Assembly: GCF_036511935.1 (NCBI RefSeq)
Contig: NZ_AP028878.1
Coordinates: forward strand, 4,464,001 to 4,528,000
Length of the DNA stretch: 64,000 nt
Direction: 5' to 3'
Source of the DNA: Marinobacter nanhaiticus D15-8W
GTDB taxonomy: Bacteria > Pseudomonadota > Gammaproteobacteria > Pseudomonadales > Oleiphilaceae
The notes beneath the pieces are model-generated. The model saw nothing but the letters and a program-made list of their open reading frames with translations, did no database searches and was not told where the DNA came from. Each line of letters opens with the position of its first letter. Position 1 is the first letter of the stretch. A program made the translations under genes and the position numbers. Shown piece after piece: positions 6,971-30,328 of this stretch.

Positions 6971-7143
6971 AGACAAACGCCGCTGGAAGGCTATGCTTTA
7001 TTCTTCGACAGCCTGAGCAGTTGATCATCTCAACCTGAGCGGGCAATATCACCCCGACCAAACGTGACATTCGCGACACCCTCCGACGCTCCCTGTCGTC
7101 CTTGTCGAATAGCGTTTTCCAGCAACACCAAACGGAAGTACCC

Positions 7144-9549
7144 ATGGCATTAACGCTCGAACAACTCGAACGCCACCTGTTCAAAGCTGCCGACATTCTG
7201 CGGGGCAAGATGGACGCCTCTGAATTCAAGGAGTACATCTTCGGCATGCTGTTCCTGAAACGCTGCTCCGATGTCTTCGAGCAGCGCTACCAGGAGGTGG
7301 TCGCGAACCAGCTGGCCAAAGGCAAGGGCCAAATTGAGGCAGAAGCCATCGTTGACAACGAAAACTGGTTCAAGTCGACGTTCTACGTGCCCAAACAGTC
7401 CCGCTGGGACTTCCTGATGAACGACGCCCACCACGGCGTGGGCAACTATCTGAACAAAGCGTTGGCTGGGCTTGAGGAACACAACGCCAGCCTGGCGGGC
7501 GTATTGGAGCATATCGACTTCACCCGCAAGGTGGGTTCCTCCACCCTTCCGGACAAGAAACTGCGGGATCTGATCGTCCACTTCAGTCAGTATCGCCTTC
7601 GCACTGAGGACTTCGAGTTCCCGGACTTGCTGGGTGCAGCTTATGAATATTTGATTAGCGATTTCGCGGATTCCGCAGGCAAAAAAGGTGGCGAGTTCTA
7701 CACACCTCGCTCTGTAGTCCGGATGATGGTCCGACTAGCCAATCCACAAGAAGACCAAAGCGTATACGATCCCTGCTGTGGTTCGGGCGGAATGCTAATA
7801 CTTGCGAAGGAATATCTCGAGGAACAGGGCGGCGACCCCAAACGCCTATCCCTGTTCGGGCAGGAGGCCTCCGGCTCCGTCTGGGCCATCGCCAAGATGA
7901 ACATGCTTCTTCATGGCATTTCGAATGCCAGCCTACTCAATGACGACACCCTGACGGACCCCCAGCACGTTGAAGGCGGCGAGCTGATGCATTTCGACCG
8001 CATTCTCACCAATCCGCCCTTCTCCATCGGTTTCTCGCCGAGCACACAGTTCCCGGAACGATTCCAGTATGGCCAGGTACCGGAAGGCGCCAAGAAAGCC
8101 GACCTAATGTTCCTGCAACATATGGTCGCCAGCCTGAAGTCCGACGGTATGCTGGCCACCGTTATGCCCCACGGTGTGCTATTCCGAGGTGGTGATGAAA
8201 AACGCATCCGTGCCGGACTGCTAGAGAACGACCTGGTGGAAGCCATAATCGGCCTGGCACCCAACCTGTTCTACGGTACAGGCATTCCGGCCTGCATCCT
8301 GGTGCTACGCAACAAAGGCGCCAAAGCACCGGAACGCAAAGGCAAGGTACTGTTCATCAACGCCGACAGGGAATACTACGAAGGCCGCGCCCAGAACCAC
8401 CTGCTTCCAGAGCACATCGAAAAAATCGTCAGCACTTACGAGGCCTTTGCCGAGGCTGACAGCTTTTCGAGCATTGTCAGCCTGGATGAATTGCGGGAAA
8501 ACGATTACAACCTGAATATCCGCCGCTATGCGGACAACGCCCCGCCACCGGAACCCCAGGATGTTCGGGCACACTTGGTGGGGGGCATTCCCCTGAAAGA
8601 GGTTCAGGCCAAACAATCGCTGTTTGATGGCCAGGGCCTGGACCCCATGGATCTGCTCGTGACCAAGAAGGGCGAAGAGGATTACGTGGATTTCCGGGAA
8701 AACCTCACCGACAAGGGCAGCATTAAACCGGCTATCGAACAAAACGAAGGTATCCGGCACAAAGAAGCCCGGCTCAAGGATACTTTCGAAAGCTGGTGGC
8801 AGCAGCGGGGCACCCACATTGCCCAGCTCTCCGGCAACGGCCAGCAACTAAGCGCCCTGCGGGAAGAACTGATTGGCACCTTCACTGACGCCCTTGACCC
8901 CATTGGCATGCTGGACAGATTCGCCGTGCGCGGCATCATTGCCGGTTTCTGGGACCAGAACAAAAATGAATTCCGCACCCTTCAGGCCCGTGGCGTGCTA
9001 GGTGTGGTGGACGCCTGGCGCACCAGCATCATCACTTTGCTGGAAGACGACCAAAACAAATCCAACCCCCTGGACCACAAACTGGTGACCTTTCTGCTGA
9101 CGGATTATGTGGCCGAACTGGAAGACCTGCAGGGCCGCAAAGCTGAATTGGATGCCCGCATCAAAACCGCCACCGCCCAGCCAGAGGAAGACGATGATGC
9201 CGAGCCGGATGAAGACGCGCCCACCGAGGCAGATATCAAAACCTGGAAGGCCGAGCGCACCAAGGCCACTAAGACCTTGAAAGCCAAGCAGGCCAGCTTT
9301 GAGGCGCAGCTGAATGAAGCGGTGGATGCACTGGATGAAGCCAGTGCCGCTGAACTAATGCTGACGATTTTGCATAACGACATTCTAGGAATACTGGATA
9401 CCTACATTCGGCAACAGAGGCAGGGAGTGATTGCTGCTTTTGAGACCTGGTGGGACAAGTACTGGGTGACGCTGGTAGATATTGAGACGGAGCGAAATGC
9501 CGCAGCCAGAGAGCTCCAAGGGTTCTTGAAGGGGTTAGGATATGCCTGA
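7144..9549 (+). CDS. hsdM: Type I restriction-modification methyltransferase subunit HsdM
   Basis: The 801-residue protein has the HsdM N-terminal helical domain ([32 protein letters not shown]) and an N6-adenine methylase core. [14 protein letters not shown] and DPCCGSGGM form the AdoMet-binding motif I, and TNPPFS is catalytic motif IV. The C-terminal ~300 residues are an acidic, coiled-coil-rich extension, making it longer than classic ~500-residue HsdM. ATG 7144 gives the family-like MALTLEQLE start; an upstream ATG at 7102 is less likely. hsdS overlaps its end by 8 bp, so the two are probably co-translated. With HsdS it should methylate the target site and protect host DNA. Confidence 0.95.
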
Positions 9550-10834
9550 TTTGGATTGGAGCGAGCAGGCAATTGGTGACATATTTCGAATCAACACCGC
9601 AGGTATTCTGCCAAACACATTCCCCAAAAGCCTTTTTTATCACCACAGCCTTCCAGCTTGGGATGAGTGTGGGGGCCCTGTGGTCGAGCCAGGCGCCTTT
9701 ATTGAGAGCAATAAAACAACACTGAAGGTTCCTTGCGTTCTGGTCTCTAAATTGAACCCGAGAAAACCACGCGTGTCAGCCGTAGCAAATATCCCAGAGG
9801 ATCAAAACCATTGTGCCTCGACAGAATTCGTTTGCCTGGAACCGACGAAAAATTCGATTCATCTGTCGTTTTGGCGTCATTTCTTTAGTCACAAACAATT
9901 TGCCAATAGGCTTGATCGCGTAGCAATCGGATCAACAAACAGCCACAAAAGGTATGGCCCCAGAGAGCTATTGTCATTTCGGATCGATGTCCCCTCGCTT
10001 GCTGAACAAGCAGTAATTACTGAGGTCCTCGATACCCTGGACACCCAAATCCAGAAAACCGAGACCGTGATCGCCAAGCTGGAAAAAATCAAGGAAGGCC
10101 TGCTCCACGATTTACTCACCCGAGGCATCGACCAGAACGGCGAGCTTCGCCCCACGCCGGAACAGGCGCCGGAGCTTTATAAGGAGTCGGTTTTGGGGTT
10201 GACACCGAAGGAGTGGGATATTTCAACTCTTGGAGATTCCTCAATTTCATCAGTAATCGGCCCATTCGGTAGCGATCTGGTAGCCTCTGATTACCAAAGT
10301 GAGGGGGTGCCTGTAGTTTTCGTGAGGGACATCGCAGGTGCACAATACGATCGCGTGAGCCAAGTGTTCGTCAGCCCAAGAAAAGCGCAGGCCCTTTCAG
10401 CTCACGAAGTAACAGCCGATGATTTACTTCTGACAAAAATGGGCTTACCGCCTTGCATTTCTGCTGTATACCCAAAACGTGAACCGGCAGGGATAATCAC
10501 AGCAGACATTGTGCGCCTTCGCTTGAAGTCCGACGTGGCACCTGAGTGGGCTCACCACTGTGTAAACTCGGAAGCAGTAAAGTCTCAAGTACGAGGAATC
10601 ACTGCAGGGGTGACCAGACCCAAAGTCACACTAAAAGACGCAAGGAGTCTGAGAATAGCGGTTCCGGATATTGAAGAGCAGGCTCGTATCCTGAGCATAC
10701 TTCAACGTAGCTCCAGCCGCTTAGAATCGGAAAGTGCGAGTTTGGCGAAGCTGCGGGCTCAGAAGTCCGGACTTATGGATGACCTGCTTACCGGCCGCAC
10801 GCGCGTCGCTTCCCTACTCAAGGGTTCAGTATGA
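9542..10834 (+). CDS. hsdS: Type I restriction-modification specificity subunit HsdS
   Basis: This 430-residue protein has two target recognition domains. Each ends in a conserved helix: [21 protein letters not shown] with [14 protein letters not shown] in the middle, and [14 protein letters not shown] with [15 protein letters not shown] at the end. That is the usual HsdS plan, with each domain reading half of a split DNA target. It overlaps hsdM by 8 bp and is in frame from ATG 9542. The target sequence cannot be predicted by eye. Its stop shares bases with a 26-codon frame that starts at 10831. Confidence 0.93.
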
Positions 10835-13237: not shown

Positions 13238-16200
13238 ATGCCTGGCCCGGAATTCACCGAAGTTGAGCTCCCCTTTATTCAACAACTGGAGCAAGAGGGC
13301 TGGGATTACATCGAGGGCTCCCTGGATTCCCCATCCGTCACCCATCGTGAAACCTTCGCCCAGGTCATCATGGAGCCGTTGCTTCGTGACCGGCTACTGG
13401 CGATCAACACCCGAAATGGCAAACCCTGGCTAGACGAAAGGCGGCTCGATCAGGCCGTCTCCGCCATTACCCGACTTCCCGCCAGCAAAGTAATGGAAGC
13501 CAACAAACTGACAACCGGACTGCTCCATGGCGGCATCACAGTAGAGGGATTGTCAGGTTGGGATGGTGGCAGGGGGCAAACCATCCACTTTATCGACTGG
13601 ACCAACCCTGAGAACAATACCTTCACCGTGGTGAATCAGTTCAAGGTAAAATGCCCACCGGGCCATGACGGCTGGAAAGGTCACGTCATTCCCGATCTTG
13701 TTCTGTTCGTGAACGGCATTCCTCTGGTGGTCATCGAGTGCAAAAGCCGCACTGTTCCTGAGGGCCTTTCGGACGCCGTGGATCAGCTACGCCGATACTA
13801 CGATCAGCGCCATCTGGATCTTGAGGTTGAGCAACATGAAGGTGCCCCTGCCCTGTTCTCTACTAACCAGTTTATGGTGGCCTCCAACTTCGATGATGCC
13901 CGGGTGGGAACCATTGGTGCCGGGTTTAACCATTACCTGAACTGGAAAACCGTGGCGCCACGATCCGAAGCGGACGTTACAGACGCTCTAGGAGTCCAAT
14001 CGCTTTCGTCACAGCAGCGATTGATTGCGGGCATGCTGCCTCCCGCCAACCTGTTGGATATTGTCCGCCACTTCACACTCTTTATGACCATGGGCGGCCA
14101 GACCATCAAGCTGGTGTGCCGGTATCAGCAGTATCGGGCGGTCACACGAGCCGTTCAGCGCCTGAAAACCGGTAAAACCCGAGCCGAAGACGGCGAACAC
14201 GACCGCCGTGGCGGAATCATCGGGCACACCCAGGGCAGCGGCAAAAGCCTGACCATGGTATTCCTGGTGCTCAAGCTCAGAACCGATCCGGAGCTTCGCC
14301 GTTTCAAAGTCGTCGTGATAACAGATCGGAAGGATCTGCAGGATCAGCTGTCGGATACTGCGGAGCTCACGGGCGAGACCGTCAAAGTCGCCAGCAACAC
14401 GGGCAAACTCAAGTTGTTGCTGGGACAGCCAGGACCCGGGCTTATTTTTGGGACCATCCAGAAATACCGGGAACATGAATCGGCCTCTCCTGCTTATCCT
14501 TCACCCAAGCCCCCACGCGGCCTGGAAACTGATCGACGGGATGCTGCAGACAACCCCGAGCGCAAACCGGCGAAACCCATTCCCTCTCGCCCCCTTGGTC
14601 TGATCAATGAAAGCCCGGACATTCTGGTGATGATCGACGAAGCTCACCGCACCCAGGCCGGGGACCTGCATGCGAACCTTTTGCAGGCGGTACCTAATGC
14701 TGCCCGAATCGGGTTTACGGGCACCCCAATTATCATGGGCAAGAAAAAACAGACCAGTGAGATCTTCGGCGACTACATCGACCGCTACACCATAAAGGAA
14801 GCGGAGAACGATGGTGCCACTGTACCAATTCTTTACGAGGGGCGAACGGCAGAGGGTGCAGTGAAAGAGGGTGCCAACCTGGATGACCTATTCGAGGACC
14901 TGTTCAAGGAACGCACCAAGGACGAACTGGAACTCATAAAAAAGAAATACGCCACCAAGGGCCAGATTTTTGAGGCACCCCGCCTGATCGAGGAAAAGGC
15001 AGCGGACATCCTGCGTCACTACGTCACCAACATCCTGCCCAATGGTTTCAAAGCCCAGCTGGTAGCCTATAGCCGAAGAGCCGCCATACGCTACCTTGAA
15101 GCGCTTAAACAGTCCCGGACGAAGCTGCTTGAGGAGGCTATGGCGCTACCTCCGGAAGACAAGAACATCGGTGAGACCGAACTGATTTCCCGGCCACCCA
15201 GAATCAAAGCAGCCATCAAGGCTTGGCAATATCGCGAGTTACTACAGCAATTGGAGTTTGCTGTGGTATTCAGCAGCAGTAACAACGATGACAGCGGCTG
15301 GGCACAGTGGAGTGACCGGTCCGCAATTGAGCAGAACATCAAACGATTCAAAAAGCCCCTTTTTCACAAAGATCCGGAGAAAGCCGACCCACTCAGCTTC
15401 CTGATCGTGAAGTCCATGCTGCTAACTGGTTTTGACGCACCCATTGCAGGTGTGATGTATCTCGACCGCCCGATTCGTGAAGCAGAATTGCTGCAAGCCG
15501 TTGCCCGAGTAAACCGCACAGGGTTCGGGAAACGCTGCGGGATTGTGGTGGATTACTATGGAGTTGCAAACCACCTCAAAGAAGCTCTGGCTGCCTATAG
15601 CGATGAAGATATTGAGGGCGCACTCCAGAGCCTGAAAGACGAAATTCCGCTGCTACGGGATCGCCACCTTCGGGTTGTGGATGTGCTGAGAAAACAGGGC
15701 ATCGATAGCCTAACGGATACGGAGGAAGCCGTTACAGCGCTAGGTGACGAACGGCTGCGAGCAGAGTTCATCGTTAAGCTAAAAGAGTTTAGCCGAACAC
15801 TGGATGACGTCCTGCCCCGCCCGGAAGCACTGGAATTCGTGAATGACGCCAAGCAACTGGCCCATATTCACGCACTGGCTCGAAACCGATACAAAGACAG
15901 CCCGGAATTGGGCAAAGACGTTGGCAGTAAGGTCCGCAAACTGATTGACGACTACATGATCTCGCTGGGCATCAACCCGAAGATACCGCCGGTGCAATTG
16001 ACTGACACTGACTTTGACCAGCATATAAATCGGCAGGTCAGTGACCGGGCCAAGGCGTCCGAGATGGAGCACGCAGTTCGCTCCCATGTCAGAAAGCACC
16101 TGGACGAAGACCCAGTGAAATACACCAAGCTCAGTGAACGCCTGAAGGACATCCTGGAGCAGATGGACGGGCTCTGGCAGGAGCAGGTAGATGCACTATC

Positions 16201-16570
16201 AGCCTTGATCAGGCAATTGCAGGAAGATGAAACAACGGATGACGAGACACCCTCAGCCCTTCCACCGAACCACCTCCCCTTCCTGAGAGTGATGGCCGAG
16301 ATCAAGCAGGATAGCGACGAAGCACTTACCTCGGATGAGCAGGAGAACCTGGAGCAAGCCACCGTATCCACGGTTCAGATAATCACAGAAGAACTGCGCA
16401 TCCCGGACTTCTGGAAGCCTTCCCACCTGCCAGACCAGGAGCGCCTACGAGGCCGACTGTTTGAAGAGTTGTTCGAGCTGGACCTTTTCCCAGTCAATCA
16501 ACTGGATGCACTGCTGGACAAATTGATTGATCTGGCCAAAGCGAACCACAGCAAGCTGGTGAACCCGTGA
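13238..16570 (+). CDS. hsdR: Type I restriction endonuclease/translocase subunit HsdR
   Basis: This 1110-residue subunit starts at ATG 13238 with AGGAG upstream. The N-terminal nuclease has VVIECKS, the PD-(E/D)xK-type active site. The superfamily 2 motor has IIGHTQGSGKSLTM as Walker A, VMIDEAHRTQAG as the DEAH box, and GFTGTPI as motif III. AVARVNRTG near residue 755 fits motif VI. It pulls DNA through the HsdMS complex and cuts unmethylated DNA. hsdR is separated from hsdMS by the macro, PIN and ImmA genes, an insertion of accessory genes into the locus. All motifs are intact, so the system appears functional. Confidence 0.95.
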   Translation: MPGPEFTEVELPFIQQLEQEGWDYIEGSLDSPSVTHRETFAQVIMEPLLRDRLLAINTRNGKPWLDERRLDQAVSAITRLPASKVMEANKLTTGLLHGGITVEGLSGWDGGRGQTIHFIDWTNPENNTFTVVNQFKVKCPPGHDGWKGHVIPDLVLFVNGIPLVVIECKSRTVPEGLSDAVDQLRRYYDQRHLDLEVEQHEGAPALFSTNQFMVASNFDDARVGTIGAGFNHYLNWKTVAPRSEADVTDALGVQSLSSQQRLIAGMLPPANLLDIVRHFTLFMTMGGQTIKLVCRYQQYRAVTRAVQRLKTGKTRAEDGEHDRRGGIIGHTQGSGKSLTMVFLVLKLRTDPELRRFKVVVITDRKDLQDQLSDTAELTGETVKVASNTGKLKLLLGQPGPGLIFGTIQKYREHESASPAYPSPKPPRGLETDRRDAADNPERKPAKPIPSRPLGLINESPDILVMIDEAHRTQAGDLHANLLQAVPNAARIGFTGTPIIMGKKKQTSEIFGDYIDRYTIKEAENDGATVPILYEGRTAEGAVKEGANLDDLFEDLFKERTKDELELIKKKYATKGQIFEAPRLIEEKAADILRHYVTNILPNGFKAQLVAYSRRAAIRYLEALKQSRTKLLEEAMALPPEDKNIGETELISRPPRIKAAIKAWQYRELLQQLEFAVVFSSSNNDDSGWAQWSDRSAIEQNIKRFKKPLFHKDPEKADPLSFLIVKSMLLTGFDAPIAGVMYLDRPIREAELLQAVARVNRTGFGKRCGIVVDYYGVANHLKEALAAYSDEDIEGALQSLKDEIPLLRDRHLRVVDVLRKQGIDSLTDTEEAVTALGDERLRAEFIVKLKEFSRTLDDVLPRPEALEFVNDAKQLAHIHALARNRYKDSPELGKDVGSKVRKLIDDYMISLGINPKIPPVQLTDTDFDQHINRQVSDRAKASEMEHAVRSHVRKHLDEDPVKYTKLSERLKDILEQMDGLWQEQVDALSALIRQLQEDETTDDETPSALPPNHLPFLRVMAEIKQDSDEALTSDEQENLEQATVSTVQIITEELRIPDFWKPSHLPDQERLRGRLFEELFELDLFPVNQLDALLDKLIDLAKANHSKLVNP

Positions 16571-17265
16571 CAGAACTGCAGGTGGATGACCTGACCTTCG
16601 AGGTGCGCCAAAGCAACCGGCGCAAAACACTGGAGATCATCGTCGATCGTGAGGGCGAGCTGGTGCTTGCCGCGCCTAAAGGCATTGAAGAGGACCTGCT
16701 CAGAGACTTTGTTCAGGAAAAAAAATTCTGGATCTACCAGAAACTGGCCGAGAAAGCAGAGCTACTTAAGCCCCAGCCCCGCAAAGAATATGTGAATGGC
16801 GAGGGCTTCCTGTACCTAGGCCGAAGCTACCGGCTAAAGCTGGTGGATGATCAGCAAACGCCCCTCAAACTAATAGCTGGGCGGTTCTGCCTGCGAAGAG
16901 ATCTACAAACCGAGGCGAAACGGCACTTCATCCACTGGTATAGCAACAAAGCACAGATTTACCTGAACGAAAAAGTTCAGGCCCTGGCTGCACGCATGGG
17001 CGTTGAACCAGCTGGCGTGAAAATTCAGGACCTGGGTTATCGCTGGGGTTCCTGCGGCAGGGGTAACCGCCTTTACTTCAACTGGAAGACGATCCTGTTA
17101 CCGCGTGAAATCGTGGAGTATGTGGTGGTGCATGAGCTGACGCACCTGCACGAACCACATCATACTCCTCAGTTTTGGAAGCGGGTGGAGAGGGTTATGC
17201 CGGATTACGAGCGGAGGAAGGACTGGTTGGCTAAGAATGGGATAGAGGTGGAAGGGGTCGAGTAA
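16567..17265 (+). CDS. YgjP-like (DUF45/M48) metallopeptidase
   Basis: The 232-residue protein ends with the zinc site VVVHELTHLHEPHH, preceded by the family-typical LGYRWGSCGRGNRLYFNWKT. It starts at GTG 16567, overlapping the hsdR stop by 4 bp (GTGA), so it is translationally coupled to hsdR. YgjP/SprT-like peptidases are recurrent partners at the end of hsdR operons; their role there is unclear and may involve processing HsdR. The assignment to the family is firm; the role is inferred from position. Confidence 0.88.
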   Translation: MTELQVDDLTFEVRQSNRRKTLEIIVDREGELVLAAPKGIEEDLLRDFVQEKKFWIYQKLAEKAELLKPQPRKEYVNGEGFLYLGRSYRLKLVDDQQTPLKLIAGRFCLRRDLQTEAKRHFIHWYSNKAQIYLNEKVQALAARMGVEPAGVKIQDLGYRWGSCGRGNRLYFNWKTILLPREIVEYVVVHELTHLHEPHHTPQFWKRVERVMPDYERRKDWLAKNGIEVEGVE

Positions 17266-17664: not shown

Positions 17665-19173
17665 TTATTCATCTTTAGATTTTTTTATTCGAGCAAGCCT
17701 CGAAACTCTATAGATCGCAATCCTGTCTTTACGAATCTGCCTGGCGTTTCTTGCACCGTCAAAGGATGATAGGTAACCAAAATAACCATAGAGCTCATCT
17801 AGTCTATCCACATACTCTTGTGGATTTATCAAAGCATTATTGAAAATAGCACGAAGCTTTCGGCGATACTCTCTTGGCGGCTGAACTTTCTCATTGACCA
17901 CTAACCCGGTTACACGCTGACTAGCATATTTGCTAGCTACACGGCTTTTTTTATCCTTAAGGTTAAAGCCTTCAGCCGACAATAACTCTCGACATTTAGA
18001 GACAATATATTCTATATCAGACCTTGATTCACCACTAAAAGTAATATCATCAGCATATCGACTGTAATCCAAACCCTTATCCACAGAAATTTTAGACATC
18101 GCCTTATCAAATTCGTATAGAACGGCATTAGAAATAACAGGACTAGTGGGCGCTCCCTGCGGAACAACTCTATTGAGGGTGACAATACCTGATACTGCTG
18201 TTGCCAATTTACGACCGACACCATTCTTTTCAAGAATTCTAAAAACATGCTCTTTGGTTATGTTGCCAAAAAAGTTTTCGATATCTACGTTCGCCACATA
18301 AGCCTTACCAACGTGCGGCTTTGCATTTGTATTGATTGATTTACCACTTGTATAGGCATGACATGTATTGTGAACTTTCAAGTGGCATAGAACATACGAC
18401 TTAATCCAATACTGAATCGTTTTAAGAAAAAATCTGGGAGCAGCAATATCACGCTCACCTCCGCCCTTCTTCGGTAAACTGAAATGTCTATAGTGATTTT
18501 CAGGCTTATGAAGGAATGAGGTAAGTAAACGAGGGGATACTCCAATCGCCAAACCAAGTTCGCTAATCGACATATCGTTTTCAGAGGACTCACCCAAACT
18601 TGCTTGATGCACTGCTTTTAACGTTGGGAAGGAACAATAGCGATATTGGAAGGAAGGAATGCCGGGTGAATGGAAATCAAGGCCAACCTGAACACTAAGT
18701 TGCTCTGAGACCCGCGACCAGTAGGTTCTGGTTCGAAGACGAGTCGGCTCCGTCCGCGAAGGCTTCGAACCAGAACCTACTGGTCGCGAGCCCTCTTGTA
18801 ATGTTGAACTAATTTCTGAAGATGGCGAAGCGCCATCCAAATCTTGATCCATTACACCCGGCCTACTTACGTTAGCATCGTACGCCGCACGTAACAAGCT
18901 AATCCTGGCCTTATCTCTCTGCCTTCGAAGCTTTACGTCCATCCGCATATTCGCCAATGCAGTTAGCGAATACATCGAATATTTCTTATTTAAAACAACA
19001 ATATATCCCAACTCCTCCCAATGAAAAAAACGATCATTCAGATATAATTCATCGGGCCATTGCTCTACGGTTGGGTATACCAATTTTAAAAATGACAAGA
19101 CCTCTTGAGGCGCCGCTGGCTGTAATACACCCAGCCCCCATAAAAGCAACTGATCATTGAACTGGATGCTCAC
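17665..19173 (-). CDS. Retron reverse transcriptase with long N-terminal extension
   Basis: This 502-residue protein carries a retron-type RT in its last ~310 residues. The retron-specific NAKPH (NAxxH) motif is near 283, VPQGAPTSPVISN near 337, the catalytic RYADDITFSG near 373, and the VTGLVVNE (VTG) template-binding motif near 421. About 190 residues precede the core, an extension not present in classic ~310-320-residue retron RTs. It looks like a real domain (FLKLVYPTVEQWPDELYL), then a Ser/Arg-rich linker. GTG 19173 overlaps the effector stop as GTGA, so I prefer it over ATG 19203. A perfect 26-bp inverted repeat lies in the linker. It should make msDNA that controls the upstream effector. 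Confidence 0.9.
   Translation of the reverse strand: MSIQFNDQLLLWGLGVLQPAAPQEVLSFLKLVYPTVEQWPDELYLNDRFFHWEELGYIVVLNKKYSMYSLTALANMRMDVKLRRQRDKARISLLRAAYDANVSRPGVMDQDLDGASPSSEISSTLQEGSRPVGSGSKPSRTEPTRLRTRTYWSRVSEQLSVQVGLDFHSPGIPSFQYRYCSFPTLKAVHQASLGESSENDMSISELGLAIGVSPRLLTSFLHKPENHYRHFSLPKKGGGERDIAAPRFFLKTIQYWIKSYVLCHLKVHNTCHAYTSGKSINTNAKPHVGKAYVANVDIENFFGNITKEHVFRILEKNGVGRKLATAVSGIVTLNRVVPQGAPTSPVISNAVLYEFDKAMSKISVDKGLDYSRYADDITFSGESRSDIEYIVSKCRELLSAEGFNLKDKKSRVASKYASQRVTGLVVNEKVQPPREYRRKLRAIFNNALINPQEYVDRLDELYGYFGYLSSFDGARNARQIRKDRIAIYRVSRLARIKKSKDE
18713..18788. repeat. Perfect 26-bp inverted repeat with 24-nt loop inside the RT gene
   Basis: Arm 18713-18738 and arm 18763-18788 are exact reverse complements; the 24-bp loop is 18739-18762. 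The repeat stays in frame and encodes RPVGSGSK on one side and RTRTYWSR on the other. In RNA it would form a 26-bp hairpin within the coding sequence. It could be an msd-like stem, a translational control hairpin, or a small inserted palindromic element. Confidence 0.9.
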
Positions 19174-19736
19174 GTGAAGGCTCCAGTACCGCTTGTAAAC
19201 CACACATGGCGCCTAGTTTTTAATCGATCAATCAATGCTGACGTATCAAAATCTGAAAAGTCACAATGCATAAGTTTTCCAAAAGTATTAATCGCTTTTG
19301 CTGGACCCTCATTCATATAAGAAACATCGTCTTTAAATTTTTCATCCATTATCAATATGAAGTCAGTCTTCCTAGCATTTGCATGTACATGCTGATGCGA
19401 AAACAACCCCAACTCACAAAAAGACCCAACACTAGATGCAATTAAAACGACGGCATTTCCGTGTGCCTGAATAAATTGGAGCTCATTCTCGTGGGCCATG
19501 CCTGAAAACTTTTTACGTAACGCCTCAAGGCCATCATCTTCACCCAAAACCACATCAAAGTCTTCTGCCTCTAACTCTTCTTTTAGGCGCTTTCTCAAAG
19601 CAGCTGCATTATTCTTATCAGCAATGTCTAAAGTAGGCCCACAAAGAAAGACAACAAACTTCCGATTCTCAAATACCTCTTCAAGGTCTTTTGAAAATAT
19701 TTCAACTGATTTTTTTAATTTATTTTTTTCACTCAC
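19170..19736 (-). CDS. Retron effector, nucleoside deoxyribosyltransferase-like (RcaT/St85 type)
   Basis: This 188-residue protein starts at GTG 19736 with AGGA upstream and overlaps the RT start by 4 bp. VVFLCGPTLDIADKNNAAALRKRLKEEL resembles the nucleotide-binding start of the nucleoside 2-deoxyribosyltransferase fold. VVLGEDD, then AVVLIASSVGSFCELGLF carries the conserved Glu. In Retron-Sen2 (St85) a protein of this type, RcaT, is a toxin restrained by msDNA and the RT, with the order msr-msd, rcaT, RT. The order here is the same. Toxicity and substrate are inferred from that precedent. Confidence 0.82.
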   Translation of the reverse strand: MSEKNKLKKSVEIFSKDLEEVFENRKFVVFLCGPTLDIADKNNAAALRKRLKEELEAEDFDVVLGEDDGLEALRKKFSGMAHENELQFIQAHGNAVVLIASSVGSFCELGLFSHQHVHANARKTDFILIMDEKFKDDVSYMNEGPAKAINTFGKLMHCDFSDFDTSALIDRLKTRRHVWFTSGTGAFT

Positions 19737-20018: not shown

Positions 20019-20049
20019 TGCCGGATGGCCAATTCCTGGCCATCCGGCA
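20019..20049. terminator. Perfect 13-bp hairpin after the directionality-factor-like gene
   Basis: The arms tgccggatggcca (20019-20031) and tggccatccggca (20037-20049) flank a 5-bp loop, ending 4 bp before the stop of the minus-strand gene at 20054. The position suggests a transcription terminator separating that gene from the retron, but there is no T run after the stem. Confidence 0.5.
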
Positions 20050-20053
20050 CATG

Positions 20054-20944
20054 CTACACAGAGACTGACTTAGCGGGACTCAGGTCTTCTCTAAGCTTCA
20101 AAGCGATTGAGGTATTGCCAGACAAACATTCACCCCTTGTTGAGGGATAAAACTCTTCAACCACCTGGCCCAACTCATCCTCATCGTATTCAAACAGCGC
20201 ATTACCGAACCCCTTCGCTGCAGCCGCATCCAACGCAGTCTGGTCAACCCCCTCCTCTTTCAACTGCCTCGACCTTTCCCGTGCTTCAGCCACAGCTTCC
20301 TGCAGTGACAACCCCTCCTTGACCACCAGATCCACATAGTAGATCGGCGCTCGATGGCTCTGTGTCGTGCTTTTCCCTCTCAGTTTCAATTCCAACGGCA
20401 TGTACGCCAATAGACCACCAGAGACTGCCTGGTAGTAGCTCAGCCTGGCCGTAAGGGTCCGGATGCTGTTGTAACCGGTCGTGCGGAAGATGAAGGTGCC
20501 GAGATCATCGTCGTCACCGACCTTGACGTTCAGGCGGCCATAGGGCTTGCACAGGCCACCTTTGCCGAACTCGCAGAGTGTTGGCCCCGGGCATGACAAA
20601 GACTGCACTCCTGACTGCGTCAGACGCTTACAGGTGTCGCCATTGCCTACACACATAGGCCGCCCGCTTTTGCGGTCGAACATGGTGTATTCAGCCCGCA
20701 GGTTGAGGTCCGCTTCGTTGAACAACATGCGAACCGGGATGGTCCGCAATTTTCCGTTTGTAGCTTCTTTTCTTAACTCCGCGTCTAACGGATGCAAGAC
20801 CCACCCGGTGTCCTTCTCCTGGATCTGGGAGGTGATGGTAAATTGATCGTCTTTCTGCGGTAGCCGGATGCCATTCTTTTCAACAACCCGGCCGATGCTG
20901 ATACGCCCCAACACGGGAGGCGTGATGGCTAAACCTTTAATCAT
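20054..20944 (-). CDS. Recombination directionality factor-like / metal-binding protein
   Basis: This 296-residue protein starts at ATG 20944 after AAGGAGAG. It has a Cys-rich centre (CVGNGDTCKRL, SLSCPGPTLCEFGKGGLC) able to bind metal. I recall similar proteins labelled 'recombination directionality factor' (Gp3-like) or 'hydrolase or metal-binding protein' on proteobacterial integrative elements, where they travel with YqaJ and DUF932 genes as here. The three lie in one direction with the zinc-ribbon gene. A role in recombination or excision is suggested by the company it keeps; the biochemistry is unknown. Confidence 0.6.
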   Translation of the reverse strand: MIKGLAITPPVLGRISIGRVVEKNGIRLPQKDDQFTITSQIQEKDTGWVLHPLDAELRKEATNGKLRTIPVRMLFNEADLNLRAEYTMFDRKSGRPMCVGNGDTCKRLTQSGVQSLSCPGPTLCEFGKGGLCKPYGRLNVKVGDDDDLGTFIFRTTGYNSIRTLTARLSYYQAVSGGLLAYMPLELKLRGKSTTQSHRAPIYYVDLVVKEGLSLQEAVAEARERSRQLKEEGVDQTALDAAAAKGFGNALFEYDEDELGQVVEEFYPSTRGECLSGNTSIALKLREDLSPAKSVSV

Positions 20945-21007
20945 GATGACTCTCCTTCGAAAAAGGACCACGGGGCACTCTTCACACCCGCGTGGCCAAT
21001 GGGGTTT

Positions 21008-23779: not shown

Positions 23780-24492
23780 ATGGCAACCGAAAAAGACAAG
23801 CAACCCGCGCCCCCACGTGTTCGCCTCGCGTGTATCGAGATTCAGCACTTTCGGCGTCTCAAAAAAATTCGAGCCACGATAGACGAGAGAACTACAATTT
23901 TTGTAGGAGCAAATAATAGCGGTAAAACTTCTATTCTATCGGCTATTCGAAAGTTTCTTGGAGACAATACCGGCTTTGGTGCGTTTGATCTTAGTGTAGA
24001 TCAGTGGTCGAAACTACGGGAGCTTGGAGAAAAATGGGAGAAGCTTGAGGAACCGCCTTCTTCAGACAATTCTGACTCGACAGATTGGAATGAGCAGCTC
24101 CAAATGCTCCTCGACTGCATGCCAACACTTGACCTGTGGTTTGATGTACAGGTCGGCGCCTTCCACATTGTTTACCATTTTCTTCCTTCTCTTAAATGGT
24201 CGGGGGGCCCCATCGGCGTGCGCATCAGGCTGGAGCCCGCATCCACGGTGGATGATCTTCAAAAAATTGCATGGCGCTTCCGTGAAGCTAAGCGGCCAGT
24301 AAAAGACCAAGATGTGCCCAATAAAGCCTGGCCCATAGATCTGCTGGATTATTGGCTTAGATACCCAAAAGACCTGAGCCACTTTTCCGTATACAAACTC
24401 GACCCTAAAAAGGGCCCTTTGCAAAATGACCCGCCAGAGAGCCCTCAGGCACTACCGACCACTGCACAAGCTCTTGATCGCTCAGCTCTAAA
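23780..24492 (+). pseudogene. GajA-like OLD-family nuclease, 5' fragment (interrupted by IS66)
   Basis: This fragment begins at ATG 23780 after AAAGGA and encodes the N-terminal ATPase part. IEIQHFRRLKKIRATI is followed by the Walker A loop FVGANNSGKTS. It runs to 24492, where an IS66 element begins and adds a premature stop. The rest is at 27166-28705 in the same frame once the IS and one 8-bp duplicate are removed, giving a 750-residue protein. With the UvrD-like helicase gene that follows, it matches class 2 OLD and Gabija (GajA-GajB) organisation. It is longer than the ~580-residue GajA first described. Confidence 0.85.
24485..24492 (+). repeat. 8-bp target duplication, left copy (IS66)
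   Basis: gctctaaa here is repeated exactly at 27158-27165 on the other side of the IS66 element. Eight-base duplications are the rule for this family. Confidence 0.93.
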
Positions 24493-24521
24493 GTAAGCGT
24501 TCATTCCACGACGTAGTTGAC

Positions 24522-24791
24522 CTACTTCACGTCACGGAGAGGCCTTAATAACTCCGGCGAGACCTTGTACTGTTTCCTGCCATCCTCACCCAGCACGATC
24601 ACACTCTTGCGATTGATTTTGGTGACGATCCCCAACACCGGTCCTTCCCGGCCTTCGAAGGTCACTTTCAGGCCAACCCGCAATTGACTCAAGGCATGCA
24701 GGGTTTCTTGTTCTTGCAGTTCATCAATTCGCTGGCAGATGGTCTGGTTCAGTTCCAGCAACTGGTCGATGGTCATGTCCTCAATGCGCAC
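24522..24791 (-). CDS. Small IS66 accessory ORF
   Basis: This 89-residue product begins MRIEDMTIDQLLELNQ, followed by a heptad-like helix and a basic, beta-rich segment (VTFEGREGPVLGIVTKINRK) that resembles a small SH3/KOW-like fold. Its start overlaps the tnpC end by 11 bp, so it is probably translated with the transposase genes. It lies wholly inside the IS ends. The function is not known; it may help transposition or be a passenger. Confidence 0.6.
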   Translation of the reverse strand: MRIEDMTIDQLLELNQTICQRIDELQEQETLHALSQLRVGLKVTFEGREGPVLGIVTKINRKSVIVLGEDGRKQYKVSPELLRPLRDVK

Positions 24792-26412
24792 GGACGTTGG
24801 CCTCCGGCTGTTTGTTCTGTCGGTCAGGGTGGCGTGGGTCGATCAGCGCCCGTAGCGGATTGTCGGCGAACCGGGGTTTCCAGAGTCGGGGCGTCAGGTC
24901 GCTGACTTCACGGGCCGGGTGCTGGCTGATACGTTGCAGCACGTCCACCAGATACGTGTACGGGGTAATATCGTGCAGCTTGCAGGTGCTGATCAGGCTC
25001 TGGATGACGCCCAGGTGTTCCGCGCCCAGTTCGGTCCAGCAGAACATCCAGTTTTTCTTGCCCATTGGAATGGGGCGTAGTGCTCGTTCCAGGTGGTTGG
25101 TGTCTGGCTGCACATCCGGGTCTTCCAGGAACACGGTCAGGCTCGCTTCACGGCTGAGCACGTAGTTCAGGGCTTTGGTCAGCGAATCGCTGGGCACGAG
25201 GCCGCCTTGCGCCAACTGATCCCGGCACCACTGGAAGAAGTCGCTGACCACCGGTTTCGAGTGATCCAACCGGTACTGGCGTTTCTTCTCGCCAGTCAGC
25301 CCCTGGGTTTTGATGGCCTCTTCATTCCGGTACACCGTGGCGATCTGTTGCAGCGCGTCGGTGACTATCTCCGGATGATCCTTCTGCGCCTCGATAAAGT
25401 AACGGCGACTGTGCACCCAGCATTGGGCATGGGTGACGTTTTCCTGGGCGGCGGCATAACGGGCATAGGCCGCGTAGCCGTCACTGATCAGGGTGCCGCT
25501 GAACGATTCGCTGAGTACTTCTTCGATATGGGCACGCCCACGGCTGTTAGAGTAAGTGAACACCACCTCGTCGGCATCGCCATACAGCGGCCAGAACCAG
25601 CCGGATTTCATCTTGCCCTTTTGCGGGCCGGCCCGGCCCTGATGACCGGCCTTGATGGGCGTTTCGTCCATGGCCAGTACCCGACTGCGCAGTACGTTGT
25701 CGGTCTGGGCATCCACAATGGGGCGCAGCAGGTCGATGGCACGCTTGACCAGATTGGTCAGAGTGCTGCGACTGACGGTGATACCGGCCTGTTGGATACG
25801 CTGGTGCTGGCGATACAGCGGCAGATGGAACTGGAATTTGTCCACCAGCAACCCGGCCAGCAGGCTGACATCGGCCAGGCTGTTGTCCAGCACGTTGAAC
25901 GGAGCCGGTGTCGTGATGAGCTTCTCGGTGCCCTTGCGCCGGAACACCGGGCGTTCGCACTTAAGCACCACATAGCTGGAGGCCCGCTGGGCCAGCCGGT
26001 AGGTGGTCTTGCTGCCGATCACTTCGTACTGGTCAGCCTCCGGCCCGGTCAGTTCCGGTGGCAGGTGTTCAATGACCTCCACCGGCACATCGGCGGTGAA
26101 GCGCAGGCCGGTGTCGTTCAGGCAGTCGTCGTCCCGCTGCTTCTTACCGGTACCACGCTGATAGGCTTTAACCGTGCGCTTTTTCTCTTCCGGTGGGTTC
26201 TCCGGAACCGGTGCATCGCCTTCCTGGAACAGGCTGTTCTGGCCCGGCAGGTCAAATGCCTGCTTCTCGGATTTGGGGCCGAACAGCTGCTTCTTGAACC
26301 AGTCCAGCTGGCGCTGAAGGGTCTGGACCTGCTCACGCAGCAGTGCATTCTCCTCGGCCAGAGCCGAGGAGGACGATGCATTGGGAGAAGGAGCAGAAGC
26401 CGTTGAATTCAT
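24781..26412 (-). CDS. tnpC: IS66 transposase TnpC
   Basis: The 543-residue transposase has the N-terminal leucine-zipper-like helix (LAEENALLREQVQTLQRQLDWFKKQLFG), a zinc-binding IS66 segment, and a DDE core with VLAMDETPIKAG and ISDGYAAYARY. The closing segment includes DTNHLERALRPI, with the Glu, and GKKNWMFCWTELGAEH. ATG 26412 is the family-like start; the frame is open further up to 26493, overlapping tnpB. All motifs are present, so it is probably active. Confidence 0.93.
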   Translation of the reverse strand: MNSTASAPSPNASSSSALAEENALLREQVQTLQRQLDWFKKQLFGPKSEKQAFDLPGQNSLFQEGDAPVPENPPEEKKRTVKAYQRGTGKKQRDDDCLNDTGLRFTADVPVEVIEHLPPELTGPEADQYEVIGSKTTYRLAQRASSYVVLKCERPVFRRKGTEKLITTPAPFNVLDNSLADVSLLAGLLVDKFQFHLPLYRQHQRIQQAGITVSRSTLTNLVKRAIDLLRPIVDAQTDNVLRSRVLAMDETPIKAGHQGRAGPQKGKMKSGWFWPLYGDADEVVFTYSNSRGRAHIEEVLSESFSGTLISDGYAAYARYAAAQENVTHAQCWVHSRRYFIEAQKDHPEIVTDALQQIATVYRNEEAIKTQGLTGEKKRQYRLDHSKPVVSDFFQWCRDQLAQGGLVPSDSLTKALNYVLSREASLTVFLEDPDVQPDTNHLERALRPIPMGKKNWMFCWTELGAEHLGVIQSLISTCKLHDITPYTYLVDVLQRISQHPAREVSDLTPRLWKPRFADNPLRALIDPRHPDRQNKQPEANVRAH

Positions 26413-26440
26413 GACCGATATTATACCGGAACCCGGCCTT

Positions 26441-26785
26441 CTATACCCCTCGAAAACGCTTGAACTGGCGGTATTTCTGCACCTCAATGCCATCGATCAG
26501 CAGTTGCAGATCCGTCAGCGTCAGGGCTCGCTGACCGGAGGCAGATAAAGGCACCCGGAACTGTCCCTGCTCCAGGCGTTTGGCCCACAGGCAGTAACCA
26601 GTGGTCGTAAAATACAGCATCTTCATCTGAGTTTTACGGCGATTGACGAAGACGAAATACTGGCCGCTGAGCGGGTCGTGCTTCAACTGATTCCGGACCA
26701 GGGCGCTCAGGCCCCGGAACGATTTGCGCATATCGGTGGGCTCAGTGCACAGCCAGATCCGGGCCTGACTATCGAGCCCGATCAT
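26441..26785 (-). CDS. tnpB: IS66 Orf2 protein TnpB
   Basis: The 114-residue protein is a typical IS66 Orf2: IWLCTEPTDMRKSFRGLSALV, then GQYFVFVNRRKTQMKMLYF and GYCLWAKRLEQG. It overlaps tnpA by 4 bp, indicating coupled translation. It is required with TnpA and TnpC for transposition of IS66 elements; its exact role is unknown. Confidence 0.93.
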   Translation of the reverse strand: MIGLDSQARIWLCTEPTDMRKSFRGLSALVRNQLKHDPLSGQYFVFVNRRKTQMKMLYFTTTGYCLWAKRLEQGQFRVPLSASGQRALTLTDLQLLIDGIEVQKYRQFKRFRGV

Positions 26786-27072
26786 CCGTTCTGGCTCAGC
26801 CGCAGTTCCACGCCGTTGCCCAGGCTGAGCACAATGTTCCAGCCGGGGCCGGAGGATGGAGAGTTGCCCATCAACGACGAGAGATCCAGAAAATCGGCTT
26901 CACCGGGACCTGACGACTCATCAGTCGACGGGTCGGACAGGCGCTTGCGCCAGTTACAGAAGCTGGCGTAACCGATCTTCTCCTGTTTACAAAACTGCGG
27001 TGCTGACAAGCCGCTGGCGCGCTGCTGATCAACCAGGGTCTGCCACTGTTCTGGAGTACGGTGCTTTCTCAT
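26782..27072 (-). CDS. tnpA: IS66 TnpA-like protein
   Basis: The 96-residue protein has a helix-turn-helix segment, EQWQTLVDQQRASGLSAPQF, with CKQEKIGYASFCNWRKRL, like other TnpA proteins of IS66. It is the first gene of the element, 85 bp inside the right end, and overlaps tnpB. Confidence 0.88.
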   Translation of the reverse strand: MRKHRTPEQWQTLVDQQRASGLSAPQFCKQEKIGYASFCNWRKRLSDPSTDESSGPGEADFLDLSSLMGNSPSSGPGWNIVLSLGNGVELRLSQNG

Positions 27073-27157
27073 GGGGGTAACCTCGTATCGGGAAATGTGA
27101 GGTTACTGTAGAGCGAATCTCAGCGGGGTGGCAGAACGTCGCGGAATGAACGCTTAC

Positions 27158-27165
27158 GCTCTAAA
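27158..27165 (+). repeat. 8-bp target duplication, right copy (IS66)
   Basis: This is the exact copy (gctctaaa) of 24485-24492, immediately after the right inverted repeat of the IS66 element. Confidence 0.93.
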
Positions 27166-28705
27166 GCCATTATTGCGGGTGGATTTTGTTCCGGCACAAC
27201 GTGGGTTGGGGCAAGAAGAGGCAGATGGCCGTCCTGGTTCAGATCCACACCGAATTGGTCTGTTTTCCAGCCAAGTACTAAAATTCGCTCGGCAAAATTT
27301 AAACAGCGACACCCCTACCCCTGGCCATCATCCCGACCTCATTAAAGCAGTCACTAATGCGCAAAATGACTTGGACACACAAATACGTGCTGCGCTTGCT
27401 CCAACGATAAAGGATGTCGAAAAGCTTGGCTATCCAGGACTGCACGACCCTCAGCAAATCGATTTTCGGACTCGCATTCACACTTCAGATTTGCTCAACC
27501 ACAACACTGCTGTTCAGTACAGAATGGATGGTCAAGAGGGCAACACTTATTTCCCGGAGCACACAATTGGTCTGGGTTATCAGAACCTACAATCACTTAG
27601 TTATCAATTAGTGTCCTTTCGAGAAACTCGCCTCAACCCCTCAGAAGGAGCACCAGCGGCGGTGCACCTTGTACTCCTAGAGGAACCTGAAGCCCATCTT
27701 CACGTACAAGTTCAACGAATCTTCCCCAAAAAAGCCCTAGAACTAATAACACCGTCAGATTCCAATCATGCTCATCTGGCGAATCAGTTGATACTAAGCA
27801 CCCACGCAAGTCATCTGGCGCACTCCGACTCTTTTACGCGCCTTCGATATGTAAGAAGGGCTTCTTCGGAAAGTCCTGAATCCATGCCTTACTCTGAGGT
27901 CATCAACTTAGCAGATGTCTTCGGTGATGATTTTAAGACACTAGCTTTTGCAGAAAGATACTTCCATGTACAGCATACAGATTTATTATTCGCAGACGCT
28001 GCAATTTTTGTGGAGGGCACGGCTGAACGAATGCTAGTTCCTTTTTTCATCGATGGAGAATTTGAAGAACTGAGTCGACGATACCTTTCATTTCTAGATA
28101 TCGGGGGAAGCCACGCCCATAGATTGAAACCCCTTGTGGAAAGGCTTGGCATACCCACTGTCATAATCACAGATATCGACCCAGTTGAAGTTACGAAGTC
28201 AAAGGCAAACAGAACCGTCCGAAAGGCCACGGTCATTCGTTCTCCAAAAAATCTTGAATGCGGAAACGACACACTCACGAAGTGGCACCCAAGAAAAATC
28301 TGCTTAGATGATTTTGGCGCACTTTCAGGTGAGGATCTAACATGGGTTAGCGAAAATGGAACCAGAGTGCGATTCGCCTGGCAATTGCCAATATTCAGTA
28401 ACGGACCGTGGCCCAGCTCATTCGAAGATTCGTTCATTCTGTCAAACTTAGACTGGTTCAAACGGCAGATGGACGAAACCGGCCCGCTCGGGAAGGCCTG
28501 CGAAGTAGCGCGTGAGTGCGAAGGTCCGAATGAGCTAAACGAAGCACTTCACGAAATGCTTCATGGCTCTTTCAAGAAAGGCGACTTCGCCTCAACTATT
28601 TTTGAAAAACTCAGTATTGGAGAGCCCTTAACATGCCCTTCCTATATTTCTGACGCTCTTGGTTGGCTCCAACGAGAGTTAGATCCTAAAAAAGGTGGGG
28701 GTTAG
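27166..28705 (+). pseudogene. GajA-like OLD-family nuclease, 3' fragment
   Basis: The fragment continues the frame of 23780-24492 (…ALKPLLRVDF) and ends at TAG 28705. It holds the second half of the ABC-type ATPase (LVLLEEPEAHLH as Walker B, then LILSTHASHLAHS) and the TOPRIM nuclease (DAAIFVEGTAERMLVP, then TVIITDIDP). These are the acidic residues expected of OLD nucleases. No other damage is seen, so the IS66 insertion alone breaks the gene. A short frame starting inside the IS at 27128 might yield a fusion lacking Walker A, which should be inactive as an ATPase. Confidence 0.85.
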
Positions 28706-28707
28706 TC

Positions 28708-29122
28708 ATGAATTTGGTTCCAGCCGATGACAATGATCGCGACTCCAAGGTAGTTAACGAAATATGCGATTACCTTACCTCAAACCCTCCTCGAAGTTTT
28801 TTCTTGTTTGCCGGAGCTGGATCAGGCAAAACGCGCACACTAGTAGAAGTTCTGCGCCGATTGACGGGCATTGAGAAACATGAAACCGGGTCTCGATTCG
28901 CAGCCCAACTCTTTGCTCGCGGTCAATCGATTCGAGTAATAACCTATACGCGAAATGCAGCCGCTGTAATCAATGGGCGATTAGGCGATAACACCCTCAC
29001 TAAGGTCTCGACGATCCATGGTTTTTGTTGGGATTTAATCGCGGGGTTCGATGAGGATATAAAAGACTCATTGCTGGCACTTAATCAATCTGCTCTGGAT
29101 AAAGCGAGACAGAAAGCTCAGG
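28708..29122 (+). pseudogene. GajB-like UvrD-family helicase, 5' fragment (interrupted by IS3-family element)
   Basis: The fragment starts at ATG 28708, two bases after the stop of the OLD nuclease gene, and has the Walker A segment FFLFAGAGSGKTRTL and a motif Ia-like RVITYTRNAAAVI. It is cut at 29122 by an IS. The rest follows at 30329-31893 in frame, for a 659-residue helicase. UvrD-like helicases next to OLD nucleases form Gabija-type anti-phage systems. Confidence 0.85.
29119..29122 (+). repeat. 4-bp target duplication, left copy (IS407 group)
   Basis: cagg here is repeated at 30325-30328 after the right end. Four bases is the usual duplication for the IS407 group of IS3. Confidence 0.75.
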
Positions 29123-29138
29123 TGTAAACATCCCGCTT

Positions 29139-29960
29139 TTAGTTGCACCGCTGATTAGAGTTTTCCGTCTGTTGGTGTCTCGCCAGATATTCCCATGGCG
29201 TCAGGTCTTCCAGTGAATCGTGGGGACGTTCATCGTTGTATTCGGCCATCCACGACTCGGTCCGCTGCCGGACTTCGGTGAGATTCCGGAAGACATACAT
29301 ATTCAGGATCTCGTCCCGGTAAGTGCGGTTGAAGCGCTCCACGTAGGAGTTCTGGGTCGGCTTACCGGGCTTGATAAATTCCAACGCGATAGCGTGCTTT
29401 TCTGCCCAGTCTGCCAAGGCGATGGAGATGAACTCCGGGCCGTTATCCATACGTAGTCTGGCCGGGTAACCTCGCCAGGCGATGATGCGCTCCAGGACCC
29501 GGATGACCCTCGGTGCTGGCAGGTTCAGGTCAATCTCGATGGCAAGGATCTCCCGGTTGAAGTCATCCACCACATTGAACGTTCGGAACCGGCGACCACA
29601 GAACAGACTGTCGCTCATGAAATCCATGGACCAGCAGTGATTCGCTGTGCTGGGGACGGCCAGCGGTTCGGGATTTCGGGTTGGAAGCCGCTTCTTACCT
29701 CGTCGTCGCTTGTTCAGGTTGAGCGCGCGGTACAGTCGATAGACCCGCTTGTGATTCCAGGCATGCCCCCATCGACGCAGCACCTTGAACAGCTTGCTGA
29801 AGCCGTAGGCAGGGTAGCGTTCAGTGGCGCTCTGAAGCGCTGCAATCACCGGCTCATCACGGGCGGTATCGGGCTGGTACCGATACACAGAGTCACTGAT
29901 GCCAGCGATTCGGCAGGCTCTGCGAACGCTGATGCCGTGAGCCTGCTTGAGGTAATCCAC
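29139..29960 (-). CDS. IS3-family transposase OrfB (DDE integrase core)
   Basis: The 273-residue frame from ATG 29960 has the HTH_21-like start (HGISVRRACRIAGIS) and a retroviral-integrase-type core: CWSMDFMSDSLF, RMDNGPEF, then SYVERFNRTYRDEIL, which supply D, D and E. The frame is open upstream into orfA, so the active form is probably an OrfAB fusion made by -1 frameshifting. Confidence 0.93.
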   Translation of the reverse strand: MDYLKQAHGISVRRACRIAGISDSVYRYQPDTARDEPVIAALQSATERYPAYGFSKLFKVLRRWGHAWNHKRVYRLYRALNLNKRRRGKKRLPTRNPEPLAVPSTANHCWSMDFMSDSLFCGRRFRTFNVVDDFNREILAIEIDLNLPAPRVIRVLERIIAWRGYPARLRMDNGPEFISIALADWAEKHAIALEFIKPGKPTQNSYVERFNRTYRDEILNMYVFRNLTEVRQRTESWMAEYNDERPHDSLEDLTPWEYLARHQQTENSNQRCN

Positions 29961-29983
29961 CAGTTCTCGTCGAACGGCTGGCT

Positions 29984-30250
29984 TTACAGCTTTTTTTCGA
30001 TCACATCCTTCAACAGTTTGTGATCCAGGCTCAACTCGGCGTACATCTGCTTGAGCCGGCGGTTTTCCTCTTCAAGCTCTTTGAGGCGCTTCACGTCAGA
30101 AGCTTCCATGCCACCGTACTTGGCTTTCCAGTTGTAGTAGGTCGCGTCGGAGATGCCGTACTCCCGACAGACTTCCTTGACCAGGCGACCGCCCTCGACC
30201 TCCTTCAGGATCTTGACGATCTGGGACTCGCTGTACCGTGATTTCTTCAT
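29984..30250 (-). CDS. IS3-family OrfA
   Basis: The 88-residue protein starts MKKSRYSESQIVKILKEVEGG and has the helix-turn-helix ending ISDATYYNWKAKYGGM, then a leucine-zipper-like LKELEEENRRLKQMYAEL. The end of its frame carries a run of seven A followed by G on the minus strand (about 29988-29998), a likely -1 frameshift site for making OrfAB. Start ATG 30250 is family-like. Confidence 0.92.
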   Translation of the reverse strand: MKKSRYSESQIVKILKEVEGGRLVKEVCREYGISDATYYNWKAKYGGMEASDVKRLKELEEENRRLKQMYAELSLDHKLLKDVIEKKL

Positions 30251-30324
30251 GCTGCTCTCCGTTTGCCTCATTGTAGGCCGGAGAACTCTAATTACGCATG
30301 CACCGATTTTAGGGGGTGTTTACA

Positions 30325-30328
30325 CAGG
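30325..30328 (+). repeat. 4-bp target duplication, right copy (IS407 group)
   Basis: cagg directly follows the right end of the element and matches 29119-29122. Confidence 0.75.

Follow-up and report, generated by a model that had tools for sequence, protein, structure and literature searches.

Why should a gene for a reverse transcriptase (RT) carry a long and perfect hairpin in the middle of its reading frame? The question is raised by a stretch of 64,000 nucleotides of Marinobacter nanhaiticus D15-8W (contig NZ_AP028878.1, positions 4,464,001 to 4,528,000; hereafter, the window), where two arms of 26 nt each, at 18713-18738 and 18763-18788, are 100% complementary, lie 24 nt apart and fall within the open frame 17665-19203 of the minus strand, which reads through them. 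The original prediction had described this arrangement as a perfect repeat in an uninterrupted frame, with an arm length far above chance; the coordinates and the open reading frame confirm the former, and the latter agrees with a hairpin score of 26 in the window versus a best score of 13 in 200 synonymous-codon shuffles of the RT gene. Three options had been proposed for it, namely a second or relocated msd template, a structure controlling the amount of RT, or an in-frame palindromic insertion. Retrons are anti-phage systems of bacteria in which an RT makes DNA from a small RNA. We consider it highly probable that the locus is a type II-A-like retron, with an NDT effector and an RT, whose RT-copied noncoding RNA (ncRNA) lies nested, in frame, within the coding sequence of that RT, the relocated msd being the option best supported by the paired changes described below.

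The retron operon and its surroundings

The RT gene (17665..19203, minus strand) encodes 512 aa when read from the GTG at 19203, and residues 13-502 match the PADLOC model RT_II-A (PDLC02940, E 3.7e-199), although alignment with homologues points to the in-frame GTG at 19173, overlapping the effector's stop codon, as the true start. The effector gene (19170..19736, minus strand) lies directly upstream and encodes a short NDT-type effector of 188 aa, matching PADLOC NDT_II-A (PDLC02929, E 1.9e-55), and the proteins of the operon thus both match type II-A models. The RT protein begins with a winged-helix domain (18868..19158, minus strand, residues 16-112) and ends with the RT domain proper (17668..18576, minus strand, residues 210-512), and Foldseek gives the retron Ec86 RT as the top fold match of the window RT. 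The retron RT hallmarks given in the available part of PMC6868368, the NAxxH motif of region X and the VTG triplet of region Y, are each present in 7/7 aligned RTs, and a further relative outside that alignment, L029, has NAKVH and ITG. Between the two domains, residues 113-161 and 169-209 have a pLDDT below 50 in the predicted structure, and the protein stretch encoded by the element under study is predicted to be a disordered linker joining the winged helix to the RT domain.

As to the winged helix itself, Foldseek retrieved many winged helices, including chains 8qbk_F and 8qbl_G of the Eco1 effector with E values of 0.13-0.19; both chains are absent among the winged-helix structural-alignment matches listed, and hhalign of the N-terminal domain against one canonical effector (P0001 from L027) gave no match, with a probability of 0.3%. 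It is a guess on our part that fusion could have brought an Eco1-effector-like winged helix, the ncRNA that followed it and the RT into one frame. Two distant relatives, L016 and L017, have NDT-like effectors longer than that of the window; the one in L016, which lies upstream of the RT, also matches LmuA (E 1.3e-14), and the one in L017 also matches DUF626_VIII (E 5.4e-23) and, in Pfam, a putative serine esterase.

At 1074-2825, the wider window has a tmRNA gene and, behind it, one for a tyrosine integrase (1551-2825), an arrangement suggestive of a genomic island integrated at ssrA. Type I restriction-modification genes are found by Pfam, HsdM at 7102-9549 and HsdS at 9542-10834, and by eye, a 1110-aa open reading frame at 13238-16570 looks like HsdR, with a YgjP-like gene (16567-17265) overlapping its end. 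On the other side of the retron, the N-terminal part of an AAA protein (23780-24496, by eye) is followed by an IS66 transposase (24781-26493), an AAA/OLD-TOPRIM part (27128-28705) and a UvrD-like helicase (30316-31893), so that 23780-31893 resembles a Gabija-like defence pair whose first gene contains an IS66 element. There is also a match to the isrN sRNA (Rfam RF01396, 87 bits) at 29843-29985.

Conservation of the hairpin across the RT family

We gathered 17 loci with RTs of the same family, the window included, in searches at E 1e-80 or 1e-90, and therefore the following counts refer to strong relatives. L002, a gammaproteobacterial metagenome-assembled genome, was the sole relative among 34 candidate contig stretches, and its RT is 55-57% identical to that of the window; the RTs of L006, L007, L008, L014, L016 and L017 are 32-38% identical. 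L005 is from a Klebsiella plasmid and its RT is frame-broken. Eight of 5426 E. coli genomes carry the family (L006, L007, L008, L009, L018, L019, L020 and L021), seven of them with at least 80% query coverage. IMG/VR provided L013, L014 and L015 (L010-L012 being the same contigs); L015 begins inside the hairpin, and L013, which may or may not be an isolate distinct from L007, was counted as its own locus. At the phylum level, the family was found in 3/398 genomes including the window's own, giving L016 and L017, and L029 came from a further genome set (2/237, one being that of L016) after the model had been formed. No new loci were obtained from the genus (1/6), class (1/369) or order (1/390), where the only match was the window's own genome, nor from additional genome sets (1/9, 1/196, 0/31 and 1/230), whose single matches were loci already counted, and a scan of 143 viral contig stretches found no relatives. 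All eight E. coli copies have an integrase gene on one side and, on the other, genes annotated as phage polarity suppression and ogr/Delta-like, and from these neighbours we take the carriers for P4-like satellites; a tRNA-Sec was present in the stretch read at L006, L008 and L009 (3/8 copies).

A hairpin is present at the same site of the RT gene in all 17 loci, long in 14 of them and short in three (L007, L021 and L013). The hairpins exceed what the encoded proteins and their codons would give: with 200 codon shuffles each, the scores and shuffle maxima were 23 and 14 for L002, 29 and 13 for L006, 25 and 11 for L008, 20 and 12 for L016, and 15 and 12 for L017, and the observed score was never reached. 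The same was found for the later-added L029, whose hairpin has 21 perfect pairs (score 21, shuffle maximum 11, 0/200). The short form of L007, with a score of 12 reached by 6/200 shuffles, is within chance when taken alone. As a control, the RT genes of seven other retrons score 7-11 for their longest hairpin. The E. coli forms L006 and L007 are separated by an in-frame length difference of 39 nt in the hairpin, located at short direct repeats, and the short form keeps a 12-bp stem, as do L021 and L013.

It is the structure that is shared, not the sequence, since the arms of the window, L002, the enterobacterial loci, L016 and L017 are unrelated across distant lineages and pair well only within their own group. 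Paired changes in homologues, the test that the original prediction had set for selection on the hairpin, gave a positive answer. In an alignment of six rows (the window, L002, L006, L014, L008 and L005, leaving out L016, L017, L029 and the near-identical E. coli copies), which represent three groups only, namely the window, L002 and four enterobacterial copies, 150/150 cells were paired over the outer 17 pairs of the hairpin and an 8-pair stem-loop beside it, the inner pairs of the window hairpin being left out of the count for gaps and misaligned bases. Both sides had changed at 12/25 pairs, whereas the shuffles had a mean of 4.5 and none of 500 reached it; the covariation score was 0.499 versus 0.200. 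When the structure was slid along the alignment, 36-46% of cells were paired, a control in which the counted structure, read from the window's own row, is favoured.

Synonymous sites inside the element, whose limits are given in the next section, are unusually conserved. Fourfold sites are identical inside versus outside it at 30/31 versus 73/134 between L006 and L014 (Fisher p 1.6e-6), 21/27 versus 28/72 between L006 and L008 (p 5e-4), 21/27 versus 32/74 between L014 and L008 (p 1.8e-3), and 12/21 versus 28/83 between the window and L002 (p 0.044). The structure is conserved, covaries and lies in the RT frame.

The msr-msd-like element and competing readings

The original prediction covered the central hairpin only. 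On the same transcript strand, there are also a short stem-loop (18838-18820) and a long-range helix (18862-18846 with 18678-18661), and in the minimum free energy folds of nine loci, read by eye, a single architecture recurs, consisting of the 5' half (a1) of the long-range helix, the stem-loop, the long hairpin and then the 3' half (a2). In the window, the proposed msr-msd RNA measures 202 nt (18661..18862, minus strand) and lies wholly within the RT coding sequence, at about residues 114-181. From 5' to 3' on the minus strand, it would comprise a1 (18846..18862), a short segment with the proposed priming guanosine at 18843 (18839..18845), placed by analogy with known msr RNAs, an msr-like stem-loop with an 8-bp stem and a 3-nt loop (18820..18838), the long hairpin as proposed msd template (18713..18788), a spacer (18679..18712), at the 3' end of which reverse transcription would start, and a2 (18661..18678).

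The geometry is fixed across eight loci of seven lineages, with total spans of 181-202 nt (202, 193, 194, 190, 194, 182 and 181 nt in seven loci, and 182 nt in L029); a1 lies 56-61 nt from the hairpin, and the spacer from the hairpin to a2 measures 30-38 nt in seven loci. The a1/a2 duplex has 12-16 bp, bulges allowed. In codon shuffles of eight genes (L005 and L007 left out), its energy was reached, per 1000 shuffles, by 25 in the window, 2 in L002, 1 in L006, 3 in L008, 14 in L014, 5 in L016, 4 in L017 and 1 in L029, for regions that were picked after the folds had been seen; at 25/1000, the helix of the window is only moderately unusual. The stem-loop keeps 8/8 pairs and its 3-nt loop in eight loci, and 7/8 pairs in L029; its register pairs third codon positions with third codon positions, and two of these pairs are compensated, switching between C-G and T-A across lineages. 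Given the protein and codon use, such a stem-loop has a chance of 3-8% per gene, being partly forced by the Gly-Gly-x-Ser-Pro codons, and therefore, although repeated, it is weak evidence when taken alone.

How far does this element resemble a retron RNA? As described in the available part of PMC6868368, the msr has short stem-loops with a 3-10-nt loop, the msd is one long hairpin, the ends share 8-30 complementary bases, and the Eco1 RT binds an 8-bp msr stem with a 3-base loop. The hairpins of the loci scored here, with 12-31 bp, fit a single long msd hairpin (about 10-50 bp). The same source gives the priming guanosine as usually within TAGC and sometimes within CAGA, which Ec67 uses; between a1 and the stem-loop, TAGC is present in 0/7 tabulated loci and CAGA or CAGG in 4/7, the remaining three having CAAG (the window), CAAAG (L008) and AAAG (L016). 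By this comparison, the layout fits known retron RNA, whereas the strict priming sequence and the location of the structure relative to the RT gene do not. Rfam gave no family at gathering score over the element, and its sub-threshold matches, mostly to microRNA families of eukaryotes, are of a kind that any long hairpin may produce. A separate internal promoter for the ncRNA was also considered and rejected, the scan being no better than shuffles (5 found versus a shuffle mean of 5.0), and by eye, no start codon after a2 is shared between the homologues in the window and L006.

The likeness is closest to the type II-A retrons (Retron-Eco1/Ec86 and relatives), which also have an NDT-type effector and an RT in one operon and the RNA order a1, 8-bp/3-nt stem-loop, long hairpin and a2, besides the RT model and fold match already mentioned. 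In contrast to them, the window has its structure inside the RT frame and not upstream, a winged helix at the N-terminus of its RT, and a short effector. According to the accessible text of PMC6868368, the msr-msd is placed upstream of the RT, with open reading frames between or behind, and the separate open reading frame on the plasmid retron Retron-Sen1 (Se72) is not the RT gene. Among the literature matches listed, a scope outside which the main retron classification lies, there is no account of an ncRNA inside an RT gene; the accessible parts of PMC12548924, PMC9252829, PMC9122126 and PMC8867640 contain no such nested case, and the sought terms had no match in that of PMC12262390.

The best surviving alternative, though an unlikely one, is that the element acts only in cis, the RT or the winged helix binding its own mRNA, or the hairpin slowing ribosomes between two domains, while no DNA is copied from it. 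This would suit an element that lies in the coding strand, is conserved as a structure and separates two folded domains, and fragments of retron RTs bind msr stem-loops tightly (PMC6868368, available part). Yet it leaves the full msr-msd layout with a1/a2 unexplained, and the template would still have to be found, there being no conserved hairpin in the kilobase that precedes the effector. The idea of a structure controlling the amount of RT, in its purely regulatory form, accounts for less of the anatomy.

It is less probable still that a conventional msr-msd lies elsewhere, the internal element being a decoy or a second template. The window does have an upstream hairpin at 20019-20049 (13 bp, perfect, with a 5-nt loop), at a distance of 283 nt from the effector, and the scan could miss a genuine ncRNA: with the same script, the 1.3-1.6 kb upstream of the RTs of seven other retrons score 22, 20, 17, 13, 11, 11 and 10, and because four of these seven controls reach only 10-13, the lack of a strong upstream hairpin does not mean that there is no ncRNA. 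However, the hairpin of the window is not conserved, the best scores in the 1 kb upstream of the effector being 13 in the window and 6-11 in seven other loci (the effector start of L014 was placed by analogy with L006), and its location immediately after the stop of gene 20054-20971 is one expected of a terminator, although no T run follows. The 13-bp hairpin being peculiar to the window, the proposal of a second msd becomes less likely, with the reservation that the upstream test is not very sensitive.

In-frame palindromes inside protein genes are familiar from the RPE insertions of Rickettsia. That the hairpin is a functionless palindrome, either RPE-like or a quasi-palindrome perfected by template switching, is very improbable, for while its stem does change by indels, as in the 39-nt difference between the two E. 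coli forms, the repeat is found at one place only in the 5.4-Mb genome (on both strands, as a palindrome must be), the 17 loci include no empty site, the linkers of the window and L002 differ in length by a few residues only, and the site is conserved across lineages with covariation that contradicts it. The insertion element was accordingly rejected, and neither further genomic copies nor RTs without the segment, both of which had been proposed as things to search for, were found.

A message that may also be a template

For the nested ncRNA, we propose the following mechanism. The operon would be transcribed and ribosomes would make the winged-helix-linker-RT protein, while on copies not under translation there, the RNA 18862-18661 (minus strand) would fold into the a1/a2 helix, the stem-loop and the long hairpin. 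The RT would recognise and bind the 8-bp/3-nt stem-loop, and the guanosine between a1 and the stem-loop would prime reverse transcription, starting just 5' of a2, near 18679, and running through the hairpin. The product would most likely be an msDNA of roughly 110-135 nt, of plus-strand sequence starting near 18679, and, by analogy with known retrons, the NDT effector would be restrained by the complex of msDNA and RT. Read by ribosomes instead, this stretch would encode the disordered linker from the winged helix to the RT domain.

One mRNA molecule could then be either read by a ribosome or folded as a template, but not both at the same time, and the syntheses of RT and msDNA would compete; moreover, the removal of the template by RNase H would cut the message. 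Since translation and templating would be mutually exclusive and RNase H would cut the message, the system should therefore limit its own RT. A partial parallel exists in group II introns with an internal maturase open reading frame, where an RT coding sequence and its structured RNA substrate share one transcript, with the open reading frame in a loop of the RNA; in the window, in contrast, the RNA sits within the open reading frame and is translated as part of it. We lean, with modest confidence, towards extending the scheme to the whole retron clade, in which a single RNA would be mRNA and template alike, and the msDNA guarding the effector would be copied by the RT from a segment of the RT's own reading frame.

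Retron surveys look beside the RT gene for the ncRNA, and this clade could thus be scored as having none. If the reading is true, a structured template of reverse transcription can be translated, and one can test how the roles of message and template trade off against each other. Nature would then offer an example of dual coding in which third codon positions pair with one another, and tools for DNA production would gain a new retron architecture. For the retrons themselves, it would mean that msDNA synthesis consumes the message, a built-in limit on the RT, and that the protein must tolerate any change made in the sensor DNA.
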